From: Prorocentrum cordatum
Taxonomy: Eukaryota > Sar > Dinophyceae > Prorocentrales > Prorocentraceae
Length of the DNA stretch: 64,000 bases
NCBI GenBank assembly: GCA_963575745.1
Contig: CAUYUJ010018316.1
Span: 629,494 to 693,493 of the forward strand
Direction of reading: 5' to 3'
The position numbers and the translations under genes were made by a program. Below are positions 14,370 through 61,242 of this stretch, in pieces. Each line of letters starts with the position of its first letter. Positions within the stretch are counted from its first letter, which is position 1. A model generated the notes under the pieces. It was not told where the DNA came from. It searched no databases and saw nothing but the letters and a program-made list of their open reading frames with translations.

Positions 14370-14900
14370 ACATTGGGAGGAGGGGGGGGTCTGGCTCTGG
14401 ACCTCTGCTTAGTACGACTGTTTGTAAGAGTCCTGTCTCTGGGAGAGGGACCCCGGGACCCCACCTGCTCGAAACAGGCGCCCAAAACAGCCAAGATCTA
14501 CTCCACGGGGGGGGAGGCGCGAGGGCCCGCGCCGATCGGCAAAATAACGAACAACAACACGACCACATGTGGAAAGATCGGTCTCAGATGTCTGGAGGTC
14601 GCTTTGCCCACGCCCGGACGCAGCTCGACAGGCTGGCCTGGACGTGCGCCAGGAGGGCCAGGGAAACCGACCCTGGGCGGACATGTTTCGCTGTGAATCG
14701 ATGTCACGCGTGCTCTTGAACCCTTCGCCGTCGCCTTAGTTAGCCCTTCACACAATCCCTACGGAGACCGAGCACTCCGTACGCACTTCCCCCCTGCGGA
14801 CTTCCATCCCCCGATGTCCTCACAGGAGTGGCTCCCTCCAATCACATGGGCTCCAGGTGCCCCTGTCGGCCTTTTTCTGATGGACCTCTCCCAAAACTAA
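14370..14900. other. Unassigned spacer
   Basis: Mixed sequence with no repeat partner found. No gene recognised. Confidence 0.4.
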
Positions 14901-15057
14901 GGAACCAAAAGGTACCGATGCCGCTACTCCCAGGACCTCTCCCAGGGCGTGCTCTGACTAGAATTTCGAAGCGAATCCAGTGGCAACGACGAGGGCCTCC
15001 GAAGAAACCCCAAAAGGCGAACACGAGGCAAGGGTAGCGGTATTGGTAGCTTTGCCT
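14901..15057. mobile_element. Family G inverted-repeat element, copy 1
   Basis: Ends CCAAAAGGTACCGATGCCGC and GGGTAGCGGTATTGGTAGCT are imperfect inverted repeats. The interior includes CGAATCCAGTGGCAACGACG. A second copy lies at 37317–37470. Non-coding. Confidence 0.65.
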
Positions 15058-15159
15058 CCTGTGAACCTACCGCAACCCGCACCCAAATCGTCCCGTGACC
15101 GACTCGCCCCTTCCGACGCCGAGACTCGGCGGCGAGCCCGGGGGGAAAGTGGGAAGGGG

Positions 15160-15300
15160 CGGGCGTTCTCAGAAGGCTCGGACGTCCCCCAGCCTTCTGA
15201 GAAGTTCTAAGCCTTCCCCGAAGACACAGGAAAACCTCTCAGAAGACGCGATGGCTTCTGAGAAGTCCCGCCGCCTTCAGAGAAAACCTTCTCCTTCTCA
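15160..15300. repeat. Cluster of CTTCTGAGAAG palindromes
   Basis: At least five copies of CTTCTGAGAAG-type words in both phases (TTCTCAGAAGG, CCTTCTGAGAAG, CTCAGAAGAC). Similar words recur at 31718–31765 and 39555–39625. Confidence 0.7.
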
Positions 15301-15657
15301 CTTCCTTGGGCGCCTGAATTTTCCTGGATAGGTGCGGTACGGAGTGACTCCGATTTGGGCCTCCGAAGCACGAGCCCGCAACTACCGCTGATTGCCCCCA
15401 GCCAAGATAGTTCGGGATAGTTCGGCATCCGGTCCAGGCTAACTCCGGCTTGGGCTCCCGAAGCGCGAATGTGTAGCTACCCTTGACTGTCCCCAGCCCT
15501 GCTGACTCGGGGCTCTGATTTCCCCCCCTCGCGCGCCGCCGAGACACTGTAGGAGTCTGTCACTGGCCCACCCAGGCTCCTCCCCGCACCGGCGGCGCCC
15601 CCTAAGGGGGTGCGGAGGGCGCGACGGGCGCCGCCTTCTGAGAGTGAGGGGTGGGCT
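15301..15657. other. Unassigned spacer
   Basis: Contains two related phrases, GGGCCTCCGAAGCACGAG and GGGCTCCCGAAGCGCGAA (15358, 15448), spaced about 90 bp apart: a possible two-unit tandem. No gene recognised. Confidence 0.4.
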
Positions 15658-15721
15658 GCACGGTTTCCCCCGGGGCCGTAGGTGACCCGAGGAGGAGGAG
15701 GAAGAGGAGGAGGAGGAGGAG

Positions 15722-15740
15722 GAGGAGGACGCGGAGGAGA
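15722..15740 (+). repeat. LINE target-site duplication, 3' side
   Basis: GAGGAGGACGCGGAGGAGA, matching 21844–21862 with one difference (C/T). The GGA background makes the outer limits uncertain, but the GACGYGG interruption is shared and specific. Confidence 0.75.
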
Positions 15741-16020
15741 AGCTGGGAGTAGCTGAAGGCGGACCACTGTTCTCAGCGCCTTCGGGGCCGGGGAGAAAAC
15801 GAAGGGGGTGAAACCTCCCCGTCCTGATCGTCAACCTTTTCCTCTCCCACCCACGCGGGCCGTCCGAGCCCTTGCCCACGCGCTGGTGGGTCTCGCCTGG
15901 GGGCGGCAGCACCACCGCCTGGGCCTCCGCTTCTGGGAGGCCGGGAGGGCAGGGAGGGGGCTAACGGCGGGCGTGACCTGCCACACTCCGACGAGACGAC
16001 CTCGACAGCCTCGACGACTC

Positions 16021-16881
16021 TCAACTGGTCCCGCTCTGCCACGGCCAAGGGCGAGGGGGCCCCTCTCTTCGTGGAAAGAGCCCCTTCTCCAAGCACCGTA
16101 AATTTTCAGCTCCCTTTGGGGACTGGCCACTGCATCGGGGCTTCAAGGCCCTGGAGTCAACCGTAGCATAACGGCCACAAGCCGTGCAAACCATCAAAAA
16201 CATCTCGGGAAGAACGTGCACTTGTGCGATGGGCGGATGTCGAGAGCCGCCGCCCGCGCGGCCTGCGGGGCTACGGGACAAGCCTCCATTCCCAGGGCGG
16301 GACGCACTCTCGCGCGGGCTAACAACAGCAAAAACATCGATGCTGGCGTCGGCAACCACCATGTCACAGACGAAGCAAAGCCACTTAGCCCCGCACTTCT
16401 TAAGGTGGTGTGCCGGCGACCTAAGCATTCTCTCTACCTTTGACAGGCGGGCGGCCCTCTCTCGGCGAGTGGCTCTCTGCGCAGGTTCAGCGGCAGCCGC
16501 ATCAATCAAGGCTCGCCTCGCGCGTCGGCGGATCAGCGCCGCGGTGGCGTCGACCCGATCCACATCAGGCCACGACCCAGTCAGGGCAGATTCCCCAGCC
16601 AACTCCGCCGCCCTCCCCGCCCACGTATCAGCCGTTAAATTACCTAAGGCTACGGACACCTCCCACTCTGTTAGCAGGAGCTCGGGGGATTCATCTAGGT
16701 GCGAGAGGGTCCAGATGTCCGATAGCTGCTCGCGATCAGCTCTGAACCTCCAAGCCTGGCGCACCTCGGTCCACAAACCCCTGTCTGGCCCACAAGGCCT
16801 GGGGTCGCTCGGCCGAGAACTCCACGTCCGAAACAAAGGCAGGTGGTAAGTCGCAAAGGTGAACGGGCCCTGGACCTCCAA
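16021..16881 (-). pseudogene. LINE RNase H-like domain and Cys-rich C terminus
   Basis: Open 286-codon frame forming the 3' end of the LINE polyprotein; the stop is at 16021–16023. Around residues 54–95 it reads LSDIWTLSHLDE...GNLTADTWAGRAAEL, the pattern of the last part of RNase H (W.SH followed by a GNxxAD aspartate). Further on are KKCGAKWLCFVC (about 158–169) and VCTACGRYA (about 231–239), CxxC pairs like the zinc-binding tail that ends dinoflagellate LINE proteins, then a final GLFPRREG near the G-HP motif usual there. RNase H would remove RNA from the cDNA hybrid; the Cys-rich tail probably binds nucleic acid. Upstream RNase H strands are not in this frame. The assignment rests on pattern recall, not alignment. 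Confidence 0.75.
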
Positions 16882-17335
16882 GAACGCCAGACCTGGAGAC
16901 CGTCTGTTTGTCCCCGGGGAGAGGCTCGGCGAGCGCAGCCCCTAGAACAATCTGGCCAGTATTACTCTGGATCGCCGCGGTAGCTGTTCTATAACAGCGA
17001 CGGCAGGGGTCATCACTGGCCTCCCGATCCATCGCCAGCAACAAACGGCCTTCCCTCAAACCTGCAGCTCAGAAATCCTCGGGCCCCCCAAACCTCCCCT
17101 CAAGCCCTCGAATCACCTCGTCGAAAACGGGGTGGGTGAAGCGCAAGGGAGGGGGGGCCCGAAACCACGGAGAGGTCTCCGATTCGTGAGACGATGTGGC
17201 CAACGTGAGGAAACAATCCGTTTTCTCAAAGTCATCATGCTTGCATTTTTCTCGCAACTCCAGATGCCATGGAAGAGAGTCTCCGGGGCTCCGGGTGCCC
17301 GTTCTCGACGGCCCTCTGCTTGGTCCACTGGCCAC
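16736..17335 (-). pseudogene. LINE linker between RT and RNase H, frame-broken
   Basis: Two short frames (17069–17335 and 16736–17059) lie where the LINE linker should be. The second has DPCRRCYRTA, a CxxC-like remnant that in related proteins falls between thumb and RNase H. Frame changes separate it from both neighbours. No catalytic residues can be placed with confidence, so only position supports the assignment. Confidence 0.5.
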
Positions 17336-17385
17336 CGCTGATCACCGCGACGTTGGTCGCAGCCAAATCTCTCGCCCCTTGCCGT

Positions 17386-18609
17386 TCAAAACCGTTTCTG
17401 CCCCCTCGCAACATGCATCGCATCGGCGCCGCCCGACAGGTCGCGGCCCGCAACGTGTTGAGCGGCGGCGCGCCGCAAGAAACCGCAACTCTCAGCCTCC
17501 GCATTCTCGAACAAAGCTTGAAAGAGCGCCGTCTGAGAGAAGCCATCGTCGCGTCTAGAAGGTAGCTCCCATTGGTCAGCTAACTCCTCATCGTTCTCTG
17601 CGGGGCTCAATCGCGACGTCGCAGATGCTGGGTCCCAGCCAATGTCCATCAACGTAGCCTTCAGCGCCGCTATCGGCCCCATGACCTGTGTCCATCTTCT
17701 GGCGCCCGCTGTCCTCAACCTGTTGCGAATGGAGCACAACGCGCGTATAACTCTGTCATGTACCTCAGGATGCCGTTGCCGCAACGCTACCCACCCACGC
17801 ATGACCTGCATGGGCACCTCCAGCGCTTGGTCTGGCACAGTGGGATCGCAGGCAAGCGTCGACGTTAGGCAGCGTCCACTACTGCGCCCTCCGGCCATGT
17901 GCCCAGCCTGTCTCCTCAACAATACCAGACCGCGCCTGCTCATGCCAAACGCTCGATGACCATGCAGCGCCTGCGGCACCGCGCCCGCATTCCCAAGGCC
18001 ACGGGAAATCCTCGACAACGCTCCAATCCTCCGTGACCTCCTGATTCTGCTCGCTCGTCGCAGGGCACCTTGTAAACGCTTCGTCGCGTTCCTGACTGCG
18101 CGTTTCCCCTCTGCAGAAGTACCCAGTCCCAAGTCTACCGCGTCCGTGGCCGCCTTCGCTGGCAGCCGTCGTGCCCCGAGTAGCTCGGCAATCCGTTGCG
18201 TGATCCGTGGGGTCGAGCCAGTAAGAACCGCCTTGGGCGAAATCACCAGTCGCTGATCCTCCAAACCTGCCGTCAGGTCCAGTGCAGTAGCTAACGTGGC
18301 TCCCCCAACTGAGGCGCGACTACCTTCGCGCCTCGCCGCGGCGTCATCCACAGACGCCCGGAGCCCCGAAGCGGGGGGGCGCCCATGGACATTGCCCAGT
18401 ATCGGACGCAGAAACAGCTTCGCCAGCCCCACCCCGCGCGGGGGGCCCGCGACCAAGGGGCGCGAATGATAGATGACCCTGCTCAATCCCGAACGCTCCT
18501 GCAGATACCCTGGCGCCAAAAAACAATTGGACCTCAAAGGGGAGAGGAGAAGCTGGGCACCCCGCTCTCCTGAAAAGTCGCAACCACATGAGAAGAGACG
18601 CAGAATCAC
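17386..18609 (-). pseudogene. LINE reverse transcriptase, catalytic DD and thumb
   Basis: 407-codon frame, the longest coding-like frame in the window outside simple repeats. Residues 55–73 (GPPRGVGLAKLFLRPILGN) fit RT motif B (PxxGxxxG), and residues 84–89 (RASVDD) replace the usual F/Y-x-DD of motif C while keeping both aspartates. ISPKAVLTGS (about 122–131) fits the following motif D/E lysine. Then comes an Arg-rich thumb with DLGLGTSAEGKRAVRNATKR and ASRIRRSRR, as in dinoflagellate LINEs. The first 50 or so residues are probably out of frame: the true frame upstream is 18344–18640. The enzyme would copy LINE RNA by target-primed synthesis; this copy cannot be functional. Confidence 0.8.
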
Positions 18610-18822
18610 ATAATTTCTCAGTGTCCAGCAGCAGAGTCAACGCAGTGGCACCGATCTCCAGAAAGTTTCACCCAAGCATGCTCTCAATAGACCTGCTCTC
18701 AACGCTGAAGATCCCCGAGTCGCAGCGCCCCAAAGACCTGCGGCGCCCTGCGACCAAGCTTCGCTGAGGACGGCGCGGCATTTACTCCACAACTTCGGCG
18801 TGAACGCGATCGCCCCCAACAC
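18344..18822 (-). pseudogene. LINE reverse transcriptase, fingers and motif A
   Basis: Two overlapping frames hold the RT start. In 18637–18822, LGAIAFTPKLWSKCRAVLSE then ALRAGLLRACLGE fits the fingers region (LWSRCR..., SALRAGL..A..E). In 18344–18640, TLLLDTEKLCDSASLLMW is motif A (consensus LLDLEKFYDS), with the catalytic aspartate after LLL. A frameshift lies between them near 18640 and another between motif A and motif C. Together with the next frame the three RT aspartates are accounted for, which makes the reverse transcriptase call firm. Confidence 0.8.
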
Positions 18823-18903
18823 TCCATCACCTCCGCTAGGTTTCGCTGCAAGGGCACATCGCGTAACAGTGCGCTGTCTCGGCCACGCGCATGCTTACTC
18901 ACA

Positions 18904-19824
18904 TCAGGAAATCACCTGGAGTAGTTGCTCACGACCTGGAGCAGGGAGCCGGCGAATGTTACCGGACCCAACGACATCGAACCCCATCGTCTTCGCGTCG
19001 CTCATATTGCTGATAATGGTGTCCACCTGGCCCAGGGTGATCTGCTCGAGCAACTCCTCTTGCGCCTGGGCTGCCAGCTCCTCCAAGTACTGTGTCAACT
19101 GCTCCCTCGTGTTCACTGGGTCCGTCCAGATGGCCTCCCACCAAGCGGCCTTATGCTCCGTCACCGTGTCTGGGTCCGCCACCCGCTTGCACGCGCTGGT
19201 CGCCAGCGCGTATACAGGGGGCGCCTTATCCTTCGCGTGGCGATGTAGTGCTCCTGGGTTACAAGCCCACGTACGCTTAGCCCACGTTGTAAAATTCAGG
19301 CGCTGGGCAGTGAATCCCTTCGCCCGAGCTAACGCCTGGCTCTTCTCAAACTTGCCCAGCAGCTGCTTGAGATCCTCTGGGTTGCACTTGTCCACCCTCG
19401 TCGCCGCCGAGCGCGCCTCCTTGCGCTCGTCCTCCGAGACCTTCCTGCCACGCAAGGTCTCCTGGTCCATCGCCTTCATGCAATGCAGCTGCTCGTCCAA
19501 GCCCTTCCCGCGCTGGCGCTGATGTCGAAAATCGTTGTGGCGAGCACGCGGCGCAGCGTGGTGCAGATGCAGATGCTCCGCAGGCGCGCACCTCATGTGC
19601 GCGCGCCCTGGCGTGGGCCTCGCCTTGCTCGAACGGGCGCCCATGCCCGCAGCTCGCCCCATATACATCTTGCGTTGGTGTTCCACCAGACCACTCGCCA
19701 CCGACGTCGAGCGCTCAACCTCTGCGACCCAACTGCCGCATGGCCGCGTGGCCTCCTGCGCCGCCGCCCACTGGTCGACGCCGTGCGTGAGGTGGTGGGA
19801 GGTACTCTGCAACTCCTCCGACAC
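18904..19824 (-). pseudogene. LINE region between endonuclease and RT
   Basis: 306-codon frame, mostly charged and alanine-rich with no enzyme motif in its first two thirds. The last 50 residues (QVDTIISNMSDAKTMGFDVV...RRLPAPGREQLLQVIS) match the conserved entry to LINE RT domains, where a K..G.D. motif precedes a leucine/proline helix. The central region has AWWEAIWTDPVN, similar to the W...W segment before this in related proteins. The frame ends at a stop at 18904–18906, just before the RT fingers, so at least one frameshift or nonsense change broke the polyprotein here. Confidence 0.7.
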
Positions 19825-19999
19825 CTCGCAGTTGTCCTGCCGCGTCCTCTCGAACTCCTGAGCCTGCTGCCACGCTGCCAGCTCCGCCGGCTAAGGGGCC
19901 CCCTCATCCTGAATGTCTCCATCCAGCCTCATCTTCTCCAGGGCCTCGCTTAGGTGTGGCTCCAACCTCGCCGCGCGCTCCTCCTCCATTTCCTTCCTC

Positions 20000-20785
20000 T
20001 TAGAGCGCGCGCGCTGTTGGGGTCAGCCCCCTTCTGAGGCCGCGCAGAAGAGGAGGCGGGCGTGGCGAGGAAACCGACTGATGACGCCACGGCTGCGCCA
20101 ATCCTTCCTCGTGAAGACGCAACCCACAATGAGTCTTCCACGGGACTCGGGAAACCGCTTCAAGTCGAAGACGGGAAACAATGTCGCCCCTCGCAGCACC
20201 ATAATCAAAGAGGCGACCCTTACGTTTGTCACAGGTAACCGTTGTGTCGGGCTTGAGATGGGCGCCCCCGACCTTGCTCGCGAACTCAGCCTTCTCCATG
20301 GGACTGTAACAAATGCCCCAGTCTGCCAATATGACCCAGGGGTCCGTGACCGACTGCACGAACGCCGCCGAGGCGCAGATCTTCTTGAAATTGACCACAC
20401 TGGAACCAAACTTAAGAACCAAGTAGGCTTATATGGTGACCAAGCCACCTCCTCGCAGGTGAATCGTGGCCGCCGGGGATCCCGAGAACGGGTCACGGCA
20501 GCCCTCCTTTCAAAGCATAGCACGTATCTCATGTTTGCCCGTGGCCGCCACATGCGACCGAATCGAGATGAACTCGCCTCCTGAGTTGCCCTTCTCAGAC
20601 CTACGGGTCCGCGTAGCAGGTGTCGCCAAACGTCGCCAACCATCCGACGCCAGAGTAGACTTCAGCTGCTGTCACTCCTTCACGCCCACGTGCGTCTCGC
20701 ACATCTTGCCTGGCTCATTGAGGTACTTGCGGGTCATCTGACCCCACGTAGTGATATTGGCGAACATGATGTTAAGTATGGCAAG
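20000..20785 (-). pseudogene. LINE endonuclease (EEP family), broken
   Basis: The domain starts in one frame with ILNIMFANITTWGQMT...CETHVGVKE (about 20785–20675), the ANxTxW...ETH opening of AP-endonuclease-like LINE nucleases. It continues in another (20422–20000) with NFKKICASAAF...DPWVILADWG, the PWVxxGDxN segment in which the catalytic Asp is kept but the following Asn is Gly and the preceding Gly is Ala. GRLFDYG (about 20222–20200) fits the later rxxDY motif. An in-frame TAA at 20429–20431 interrupts the GGLV..AYL strand. The enzyme would nick target DNA to prime reverse transcription; lost residues, a stop and shifts show this copy is inactive. Confidence 0.75.
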
Positions 20786-21173
20786 CATCGCCACCAACGT
20801 GTGTGCCCATGTCCGCGTCGCCGTCAGCCTCGACCTTGCTCGCTGCCGCTGCTGGGGCTGAAGAACAGGCCGAGGAAGTTTTGCGCGCCTGCTGCCGGCG
20901 TGCCTTGGACTGCTCCCTGATGCGTGCCACCGCCACCCTCTTCTGATCATCCACTTCTTCAGGTTGGCCAACTTCGGCCGCAGGGCGGCCCTTTGCCTTG
21001 GACCTGGGGGCTACCTCCTCTGCCATGCCAGACGGGGCTGGTGTACCAGGGACCGACACCGCAGCCGCCTCCTCCTCACCAACCTTCCTCCGCATGCGCC
21101 TCCACATGCGCCTTCTGCGTCTCCCTCGCCTGCTTCGCCAGTTCATCAAACTACTTGCACTGGGCGTACGCAT
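20772..21173 (-). pseudogene. LINE basic/alanine-rich linker before endonuclease
   Basis: 134-codon frame. The first 30 residues are Arg-rich and probably out of frame. From about residue 33 (GEEEAAAVSVPG) it is acidic and alanine-rich, then KRVAVARIREQSKARRQQAR forms a basic helix just upstream of the endonuclease, the usual place for such a helix in dinoflagellate LINE proteins. No catalytic motif. A nuclear or RNA-binding role is only a guess from charge. Confidence 0.55.
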
Positions 21174-21783
21174 TGCTGACCTGCACCGCCAAGGACTGCG
21201 TATCCGCCTTGAACTTGAGCAGCTTCTCTCGGTCCTGGGGGTCGTAGTTGTCTACGTCCTCGAAGATCGACTCATCAACCTCTGGGGCCTGCCAGCCCTG
21301 ACCAGGCGTGGTAGGCTGCGGGACCACCGCCTTGGACTGCTCATAGTAGTCGTCAAAGACCTGAAGGTGGGCCGACTCCGCCTCCTCCATCTTGGTAGCC
21401 GCCTCATGCTGGATCTGCTTCGCCTCCTCCAAGCGCTTCTGGGCTGCAAGCAGGGCCGCGGTCGCCGCGTTCAGGTCCTTTTGTGCCTGCTCCTTGCGAT
21501 TGACCGCCTGCTTGAACGCCAGCGACTGCGGCATCTCCCTCTTCGCCTTCTTTGGCGCCGCCTCCTGGACCTGGTCCTTGAAATTGCGCAGCACCTGCAG
21601 GTCGACGTCTACCTTGAATCCTCCTTTCTTCGTTTCGAAGTTCTTAATGAACGCCTCCATCTCCTGCTCAGGCGTGAGGAGCGGAGAACGCGTGGACCAC
21701 CATGGTGGCCGCTCACTGCGAGACTCCTGGGGTTCGTGAACCACTTCGGCGACCCAATAACGTCGTTGCACCTGTCGCACCAT
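21151..21783 (-). pseudogene. LINE N-terminal coiled-coil region
   Basis: 210-codon open frame. Residues about 40–160 are charged and heptad-like (EQEMEAFIKNFETKKGG, then NRKEQAQKDLNAATAALLA and AQKRLEEAKQIQHEAATKME), predicting a long coiled coil. Dinoflagellate LINE proteins commonly begin with a CxxC module and then such a coil, probably for multimerisation on RNA; this is family knowledge. The first 30 or so residues may belong to a different frame (see 21609–21830). Confidence 0.65.
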
Positions 21784-21830
21784 CCGCCCGAACGCTGCGC
21801 TCCCCTGTGGAACAGAGCATCTTGAGCCAA
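21609..21830 (-). pseudogene. LINE N-terminal CxxC segment next to the leader
   Basis: Starting within the DinoSL, this frame reads AQDALFHRGAQRSGGWCDRC then NDVIGSPKWF. GGWCDRC resembles the W-C-x2-C start of the N-terminal zinc module of dinoflagellate LINE proteins. After about 35 residues the likely frame passes to 21151–21783, implying a frameshift near 21720. No second cysteine pair was seen, so the module is incomplete. Confidence 0.45.
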
Positions 21831-21842
21831 AATGGCTACGGA
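21821..21842 (-). other. DinoSL spliced-leader relic (exact match)
   Basis: The minus strand reads T then CCGTAGCCATTTTGGCTCAA then G, identical to the 22-nt dinoflagellate spliced leader (D = T). The leader is normally added to the 5' end of nuclear mRNAs by trans-splicing; its presence in genomic DNA marks a reverse-transcribed, trans-spliced RNA. Here it is the exact 5' end of the LINE and abuts the target duplication. Confidence 0.97.
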
Positions 21843-21843
21843 C

Positions 21844-21862
21844 GAGGAGGACGTGGAGGAGA
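21844..21862 (+). repeat. LINE target-site duplication, 5' side
   Basis: GAGGAGGACGTGGAGGAGA directly follows the leader (one base, 21843, between). It matches 15722–15740 with one substitution. Confidence 0.75.
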
Positions 21863-21960
21863 GGGAGGAGGAGGAGGTGGAGGAGGGGGAGGAGGAGATG
21901 GAGGAGGAGGAGGAGGAGGAGGAGGAGGAGGAGGAGGAGGAGGATAAAGAGTAGGAGGAG
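21863..21960 (+). repeat. GGA array (right half of family K core)
   Basis: Near-pure GGA with GGGGGA interruptions; the continuation of the array at 15694–15740 before the LINE arrived. Confidence 0.95.
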
Positions 21961-22069
21961 GAAGGAGGAGGTCGGGTCGCCGAAGCCCTTCGGAGAAACC
22001 CTTCAGGGTGGGCTTGTCATAAGCCCCGCCCCACATCCTGTCGGGCACGCGCTAACACGCTAACGCTGA

Positions 22070-22210
22070 AACGAAGCCAGGACGAGGGTAAAATTGGATA
22101 GAGGTACATCGAGAAGCTTTGATATCTGGCTGCTCTGGAGGAAATCTCGGGCGCCGCGGCCTTCTCAGAGCGTTCTGGAACGCGCTAGCGAGAACGCCAA
22201 TACGGATCCT
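22070..22210 (+). mobile_element. Family F element, copy 1
   Basis: Starts ACGAAGCCAGGACGAGGG and carries the family core GGCGCCGCGGCCTTCTCAGA then GCGTTCTGGAACGC. The right inverted end is degraded. Copies at 25231–25361, 37151–37312 and a partial one at 39003–39115. Confidence 0.6.
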
Positions 22211-23130
22211 ACGGCAATTCTCTTCGCGCCTGGCGCTCCGCGAAGCGCGGTGATCTTCGCGCCTCCGCGCCGTCTCCCCCCCCATGGAACCCACTGGAAC
22301 AGGATGCGGCATCGATCTGAAATCGCCCAGACCACGAAGCGTGACCAACTTCGCAACCTCGCGGTGGCCCTCTAAGGATCACGGATCCGCGGATCTGGCG
22401 AGTGGGCGCGAGACCCACGGATCGGAGAAAGTACCCCCCGAACCATGAAACCCATGCCCCCCCGTTTGGCGGCGGAGCGCGTTAAATTTGGCACTGAAGC
22501 GCGACCCGCTGCTGTTCCACGCAGTCTGAACCACGTTTGCGTTTCGTCGGTTCTGGAGGGCCTCCCGCCTTCTGGAGAGGCCACCTCCCCCGCAGCAGCC
22601 CCTCGTGTGAGCCGCCGGCTGCAGCCACGGAGCGGGCAGATCTGGGAGCGAATCGCTCCTCGACTGGTCCTGCCCAACCCTTACCTAGGAACAAGGAAAA
22701 GCGACACCGACACCACCAGGGCGAGGAGATGTGAGGAGGCAAGGGGGTCCCCCTGGTGGTGTGGCCCCCCCCCCCCTCTCGCTCGAGACGTCGGGGAGAC
22801 ATCGTGGACCTCCTCGCTGGAGGTAGGCCTCCTGGTGGTGCTGGTGTCGCCTCTCCTCCCTCCGACCCCTGCAGCCCCGGCCCCCCCGTCCTTCTTCTTG
22901 AACATCGGCGCATGCCGCAGCATGTCGGGCAGGATGAAATAGCGGATCTGGGAGCCGCGGAGGTAGACCTGCACCGAGGCCCGGCCGCCCTCGCCAAGAG
23001 AGTTGCGCCTCCGCACCGGCCGTCCTCCTGCGCGCCGTGGCGAAAGAGCTCGCTCGCTGTGCGGCGAACGCACGCAGCGGCATACACGTCGCCTCGCACG
23101 AGCAAGACTGGGGGGCCACATGCGAACCTT
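22211..23130. other. Unassigned GC-rich spacer
   Basis: Non-repetitive within the window. Overlapping open frames on both strands are explained by GC richness; none shows a domain. Confidence 0.4.
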
Positions 23131-61220: not shown

Positions 61221-61242
61221 CTTGAGCCAAAATGGTTACGGA
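61221..61242 (-). other. Second DinoSL relic (one mismatch)
   Basis: The minus strand reads CCGTAACCATTTTGGCTCAA then G, 21 of 22 positions identical to the leader with D = T (G to A at the seventh of 22). Chance is very unlikely. Downstream, 8 nt on, CTGGCTCAGG may be a remnant of an older leader; this is weak. Confidence 0.85.

Follow-up and report, generated by a model that had tools for sequence, protein, structure and literature searches.

Among long interspersed nuclear elements (LINEs), Kibi and Koshi are known for targeting microsatellites or other repeats, and retrogenes tagged with the dinoflagellate spliced leader (DinoSL) were reportedly described by Slamovits and Keeling in 2008. 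In leader-tagged retrogenes of dinoflagellates (PMC6050394, PMC12014239), the leader stands at the 5′ end of the retroposed copy, and relict leaders run from CCATTTTGG after loss of the first 7 nucleotides (nt), thereby starting at leader nt 8 (PMC12014239); a 2018 review regarded the element type behind this retroposition as unknown and favored the long terminal repeat (LTR) group Ty1/copia (PMC6050394). In flatworms, 597 discarded spliced leader (SL)-like loci were tied to mobile elements, most of them of the LTR or LINE type; possible integration of trans-spliced retrotransposon RNA was offered as the explanation (PMC12582326). The window analyzed here, a stretch of 64,000 nt from the dinoflagellate Prorocentrum cordatum (GCA_963575745.1, contig CAUYUJ010018316.1, positions 629,494 to 693,493), holds a dead copy of a LINE family that, like several other LINE families of this genome, probably propagated as trans-spliced RNA headed by DinoSL.

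These P. cordatum elements share with DinoSL-tagged retrogenes the leader at the 5′ end and the relict pattern, but what the leader heads here is the retrotransposon itself, and (CTC)n or (GAG)n microsatellites harbor many of the copies. LINEs with an APE-like endonuclease and reverse transcriptase (RT) are matched by locus L074, which has both domains above the cut-off and resembles solved L1 ORF2p and R2, whereas the spliced leader as 5′ end, the microsatellite bias and the lack of poly(A) at the 3′ ends inspected (the window copy and others) set the present elements apart. Insertion into a simple repeat is common to microsatellite- or repeat-targeting LINEs (PMC4640811), in which the endonuclease is restriction-like; here, it is EEP-type, and families occupy either the CTC or the GAG strand. 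The trypanosomatid LINEs L1Tc/ingi with Pr77 also inhabit organisms with SL trans-splicing, but carry a 5′ promoter sequence that yields unspliced transcripts (PMC8190864), and the flatworm loci are partial leaders treated as a side remark (PMC12582326), in contrast to the family-wide 5′ end, target bias and apparent repeated rounds described below. A LINE starting at the leader does not appear in the available parts of the P. cordatum genome paper (PMC10666404), a 2024 review (PMC11453091), a 15-genome comparison (PMC8045281), or a viral-element paper (PMC10235124), and no dinoflagellate literature on leader-headed LINEs in (CTC)n was found by title or abstract start, in a coverage that mostly excludes subscription journals.

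The 22-nt DinoSL, TCCGTAGCCATTTTGGCTCAAG, occupies positions 21821–21842 on the minus strand of the window with 22 of 22 matches (expected by chance, from 100 shuffles: 0.00), and adjoins a LINE remnant that spans 21820–15741 on the same strand, whose homology to two further near-complete copies (L023, L024) extends over ~6.1 kb. An earlier note, made from the window sequence alone, had claimed this leader as the first sequence of the LINE and proposed that trans-spliced LINE RNA had served as the template for a full-length copy. Both points hold, the latter at the level of the family. The genome was queried with the 300 nt next to the leader, the leader itself being omitted, which returned 13 matches including the window, all counts being lower bounds; 8 of the 12 relatives nevertheless carry the leader (≤3 mismatches) at their own 5′ ends, and two more carry a decayed one, with one base lost in L020 and 6 mismatches in L021. 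The junction of leader and LINE recurs in L010, L120 and L121, and other LINE families besides that of the window also start with the leader. To judge from the relatives, the leader is the 5′ end of the window's LINE family. The matches of the relatives to the query begin at query nt 23 (seven), 26 (one) or 137 to 145 (four), with none earlier, and the relatives continue upstream of this homology with other LINE sequence, for ~180 to 260 nt where the leader is present. The earlier note had held that copies extending upstream of the leader would speak against its claim, and this extension is only apparent, because the window copy lost ~160 bp just inside the leader.

Across the genome (4.13 Gb in 21,875 contigs), the leader occurs 33,832 times with ≤2 mismatches, compared with 9 times for a reversed-pattern control. 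From 100 places listed among these 33,832, 88 loci were read, all of which are exact leaders from the first contigs. The nucleotide ahead of CCGTAG is T in 79 of the 88 loci and in 40 of the 46 with a context other than CTC, in which the T cannot come from the repeat; its retention implies that the complementary DNAs (cDNAs) reach the first leader nucleotide. Moreover, a second leader (≤30% mismatch) directly follows the first in 20 of the 88 loci, starting at nt 8 in 15, at nt 9 in three, and at nt 1 in two; the three nt-9 cases read CCAT and are probably nt-8 cases with one base lost. The same test at 1760 random places gave 6 matches, none at nt 8 or nt 1. With exact 12-nt starts, 11 second leaders were found at nt 8 and none at eleven other cuts; the stricter statement that second leaders start only at nt 8, based on this exact-match test, was dropped after the looser test found other starts.

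A second leader starting at nt 8 would mean that an older genomic copy was trans-spliced again, at CCGTAG/CC. By the criterion for LINE-type loci, namely a 5′ hairpin or similarity to LINE references, such structures occur in L034, L108 and L109, and further LINE cases with a second leader are probable in L099, in which 53 of the 60 nt after the relict are identical to the single-leader LINE-type L057, and in L117, which bears two relicts. Leader-on-leader structures in LINEs are the strongest evidence for trans-splicing of LINE RNA. Relicts were found in 10 of 42 CTC and 2 of 17 GAG contexts, which is not a significant difference (p 0.48), and the window copy itself contains no second leader after its DinoSL.

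Upstream of the 88 exact leaders, the context is (CTC)n in 42, (GAG)n in 17, and something else in 29, several of these being other simple repeats. The expected tract frequency is 2.9% for each type at random window positions, or 4.3% in the twelve LINE loci plus the window stretch, yielding binomial p values for CTC and GAG of ~3e-40 and 7e-10 on the former base and of 1e-33 and 2e-7 on the latter, under a test that treats loci as independent, which they strictly are not (L087–L089 form one tandem array). The 21 LINE-type loci among the 88, which include L005 and L042, themselves references, comprise 18 in CTC, none in GAG, and three elsewhere; the target choice is thus a strong bias and not a restriction. 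A family starting with G(C/T)TAAACG or close to it (L040, L059, L061, L111) has the GAG context in 4 of 4 loci, and L077, a further copy of this family whose leader also lies in a GAG context, shows homology to L074 (E 9e-49). Insertion orientation therefore follows the family, as expected if the endonuclease of the element picks the site, and this enzyme may be the cause of the target choice.

The coding capacity of such elements is clearest in L074, a member of another LINE family, whose leader at 62–83 is directly followed by ATG and a single frame of 1869 codons. This frame matches RVT_1 (E 1.2e-15) and Exo_endo_phos (E 1.4e-8) above the cut-offs and is similar to solved R2 (E 6e-14) and L1 ORF2p (E 1.5e-13). 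CTC tracts lie at both ends of L074, and its 91% identity to L075 ends within these tracts; as read from these features, L074 settles the layout of a leader-headed LINE with a long open frame and CTC at both ends. In G+C-rich DNA, long open frames alone are weak evidence. An ATG directly follows the leader in 15 of the 88 loci, and in L074, L120 and L121 the open frame includes the leader and continues into the element.

For the family of the window, the leader locus L120 shares the 5′ type (97.6% identity over the leader and the 20 nt behind it) and has an uninterrupted frame of 1224 amino acids (aa) that matches the window element at E 5.6e-142, and whose residues 1066–1223 match RNase_H below the cut-off (E 0.0013); L121, also of this 5′ type, has a frame of at least 2268 codons, still open where the retrieved sequence stops. 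The earlier note had assigned coiled-coil, endonuclease, RT and RNase H parts to the window copy. Pfam searches of ten open frames from that copy recovered none of the endonuclease, RT and RNase H domains, and nine pieces of relatives likewise gave no such domain; what stands of the assignment appears to rest on homology to the L120 frame and on motifs read by eye. Three protein homologues were found, all from P. cordatum; homologue searches with the RT frame of L033 and with L074 gave none at E ≤0.001 among the candidates scored, and searches of the PDB with a window frame, alignment A1, the L120 frame and the L121 frame gave no match. An AlphaFold model of relative P0001 from a 4-row alignment (mean predicted local distance difference test score, pLDDT, 41) was not used, and a tblastx comparison between relatives and the window produced low-complexity matches that could not be interpreted.

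Judging from its layout, the window copy is a dead, internally deleted LINE, with the following parts (open reading frame, ORF):

21843–21970, minus strand: pyrimidine-rich (CTC)n tract adjoining the leader, presumed target microsatellite and 5′ flank, from the sequence and the same tract type in 42 of 88 leader loci against ~3% expected.
21821–21842, minus strand: DinoSL, exact 5′ end of the LINE copy, from the 22/22 match and its position in the family.
21801–21820, minus strand: first 20 nt of the LINE, common to L010 (one mismatch) and L120, with ATG directly after the leader.
21798–21801, minus strand: junction of the internal deletion, ~160 bp relative to L010; no relative's match starts before query nt 23, which is window 21798.
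21100–21797, minus strand: putative ORF1 remnant with the end of a Cys-rich motif (zinc-ribbon-like, by eye) and a coiled-coil-like part; tblastn of P0001 gives 80% over 15 aa and 59% over 206 aa.
20120–20779, minus strand: putative endonuclease (EEP-like) remnant with motifs ADWG and PWKTHCGL by eye, from homology to an L120 frame and to P0003.
17245–19758, minus strand: putative linker and RT remnant with SVDD at 18343–18354 and PPRG at 18433–18444, motifs by eye, from homology to the 1224-aa L120 frame.
16603–17239, minus strand: RNase H-like remnant, from homology to the C-terminal part of the L120 frame.
15741–15780, minus strand: conserved LINE 3′ end ...CAGCTACTCCCAGCT, the same or close in 5 of 6 copies inspected.
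15688–15740, minus strand: (CTC)n tract, 3′ flank of the insertion, from the sequence.

The CTC tract on the leader side is longer than that at the 3′ end, and P0003, homologous to the endonuclease remnant, has a sub-threshold Exo_endo_phos match (E 0.00097). Within 14500–23000, no long terminal repeats were found, only the CTC/GAG tract and short weak repeats. The ~160 bp deleted relative to L010 correspond to the rest of the 5′ region and the start of ORF1, including the 5′ hairpin; cis-splicing as the cause of this gap was rejected, as no clear donor is present and a plain deletion with short GGA identity at its ends is simpler (by eye). A 19-bp repeat flanks the LINE at 15722–15740 and 21844–21862 with one mismatch, and both flanks are (CTC)n. 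The earlier note had called this repeat a duplication, but as proof of a target-site duplication it fails, being indistinguishable from chance CTC matches: mismatched CTC flanks score equal or better, the true pair ranking 24th against 32 five-prime flanks for the window, 31st for L024, and 1st for L029 (17-nt repeat).

LINE-type copies have in common the conserved hairpin that the window copy lost, whose 4-bp stem encloses T(A/G)GTCC and lies ~30 nt downstream of the leader. At one position, three pair types occur (GC 8, UA 4 and CG 2 of 14 distinct rows), and the covariation score is 0.374 versus 0.092 in shuffles, with 0 of 500 as high, in rows picked from the motif itself, so that they may lean towards pairing. 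Further pair types are no more numerous than is usual in shuffles (294 of 500 as high), and the number of pairs changed on both sides stands out only mildly (28 of 500).

The leader as 5′ end, the copied first nucleotide, the target bias, the nt-8 leader-on-leader structures in LINEs, and the long-frame LINEs with the same layout make it probable that LINE RNAs underwent trans-splicing, that their cDNAs extended to the first leader nucleotide, and that these cDNAs entered trinucleotide microsatellites, in repeated rounds. In such a cycle, a genomic LINE copy would be transcribed, and the 22-nt DinoSL would be spliced onto the transcript, presumably supplying a cap; the reverse transcriptase of the element would then copy the RNA up to the first leader nucleotide, and the cDNA would be inserted in a fixed orientation, mostly into a (CTC)n microsatellite. 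There, the relict leader, with the pyrimidine tract ahead of it, could act as a new trans-splice acceptor (CCGTAG/CC, possibly the terminal AAG) for the next round, a role for the microsatellite that is likewise presumed. More tentatively, at somewhat less than even confidence, the LINE can be imagined to build its own expression signal by its landing site: the leader-headed cDNA behind (CTC)n would recreate a trans-splice acceptor, host read-through would yield new capped LINE mRNA, and the same machinery acting on leader-bearing host mRNAs would be the source of dinoflagellate retrogenes.

Several observations weigh against this cycle, and some of them favor the alternative that an ancestral LINE once captured the leader, which is now for the most part passed on as element DNA, perhaps as a promoter and start site, with no need for trans-splicing in each round; this alternative is less likely than not. 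Only a single leader is present in 18 of the 21 LINE-type loci, which re-splicing at nt 8 alone leaves without explanation; for these loci, either the terminal AG of the leader itself must have served as the splice site or the leader was inherited. The 12 changes in the leaders of the 8 leader-bearing relatives comprise 6 private ones and 6 shared in pairs, i.e., two positions in L030/L031 (74% identical) and one in L025/L029, and such sharing by diverged copies looks like DNA inheritance of the leader or like variant SL RNAs; DinoSL relicts have, moreover, been proposed as promoters (PMC6050394). Capture and inheritance are at odds with the second leaders that start from nt 8, LINEs included, and with the same leader at the beginning of distinct LINE families and host-like genes. 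Further points on the opposing side are the absence of a leader from 2 of the 12 relatives (L011, L015); the trace in L021, which is placed by context only, 6-mismatch matches occurring elsewhere too; the 29 of 88 leader loci in neither CTC nor GAG; the decayed second leaders of L043 and L082, which start at nt 1 directly after the first and imply that another acceptor or mechanism also exists, as well as L046, L085, L098 and L114, which resemble these two by eye; the RT of the window's family, whose weak link to RVT_1 depends on sub-threshold matches of L121 (E 4e-4) and L079 (E 1.6e-4); and the target duplications, which are unproven.

Trans-splicing of LINE RNA remains the preferred reading over the other alternatives as well. 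It is improbable that the CTC tracts belong to the element or are added at insertion, instead of being the target: the tracts do lie at both sides in the window, L074, L075 and L120, but their length and irregularities vary among copies, L107/L121, of the same 5′ type, stands behind (CA)n, and the GAG-context families use the opposite strand. SL RNA gene duplication or gene conversion, of which DinoSL at the 5′ end would be a by-product, has in its favor the DinoSL tandem arrays reported from Symbiodinium genomes (PMC8045281), but is very hard to reconcile with the ATG, and not a GT donor, right after the leader in the window (where AAG is followed by ATG, without the SL RNA gene signature) and in 15 of 88 loci, and with sequence ahead of the leader that is mostly simple repeat and differs between loci. 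Scarcely credible is a separate retrogene beside the LINE as the source of the leader, an outcome that the earlier note had itself named as fatal to its claim; it has the adjacency in the window copy in its favor and nothing else, and is contradicted by the identical junction in L010, L120 and L121 and by the open frame that, in the latter two, continues from the leader into the element.

The leader and relict pattern on LINEs, along with at least one retrogene-like locus in the same microsatellite type, points to LINEs as the agent of dinoflagellate retroposition, which is testable by comparing insertion sites. The pattern also suggests a way in which a LINE lacking its own promoter could be expressed where transcription runs co-directionally over long stretches of the genome, and a possible link between microsatellites, leader and genome growth. 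That LINEs make retrogenes is only a hint as yet, from one host gene in CTC: L008, with a KOW-domain frame (E 5.2e-5, just above the cut-off), is host-gene-like and bears a leader plus a relict-like repeat in the CTC context. Host-gene-like L110 encodes cytochrome b5 (E 1.9e-16) in a context of neither CTC nor GAG; apart from these two, 18 of the 20 other leader loci whose frames were scanned had no match at E 0.01.

Some leader loci show features of other kinds. A further leader in the window, at 61221–61242 on the minus strand, has one mismatch (TCCGTAACCATTTTGGCTCAAG) and no CTC tract ahead of it, and L087, L088 and L089 (contig C39) are three exact leaders 3 to 5 kb apart in a tandem array with near-identical flanks on both sides, no CTC link, and no GT after the leader. 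In L026, the copy of the window's family is accompanied by L074-related frames in antisense (~4.6 to 7.5 kb, opposite strand). The first ~40 nt of L120, L121 and the window are nearly identical, while at the nucleotide level the body of L120 resembles the window element little and that of L121 not at all. A 5′ start reading GCAATGAACCGTCCCGACG or close to it is common to the CTC-inserted LINE L029 and to L036, L056, L065 and L092 in other contexts, as if 5′ modules had been exchanged between LINE families.

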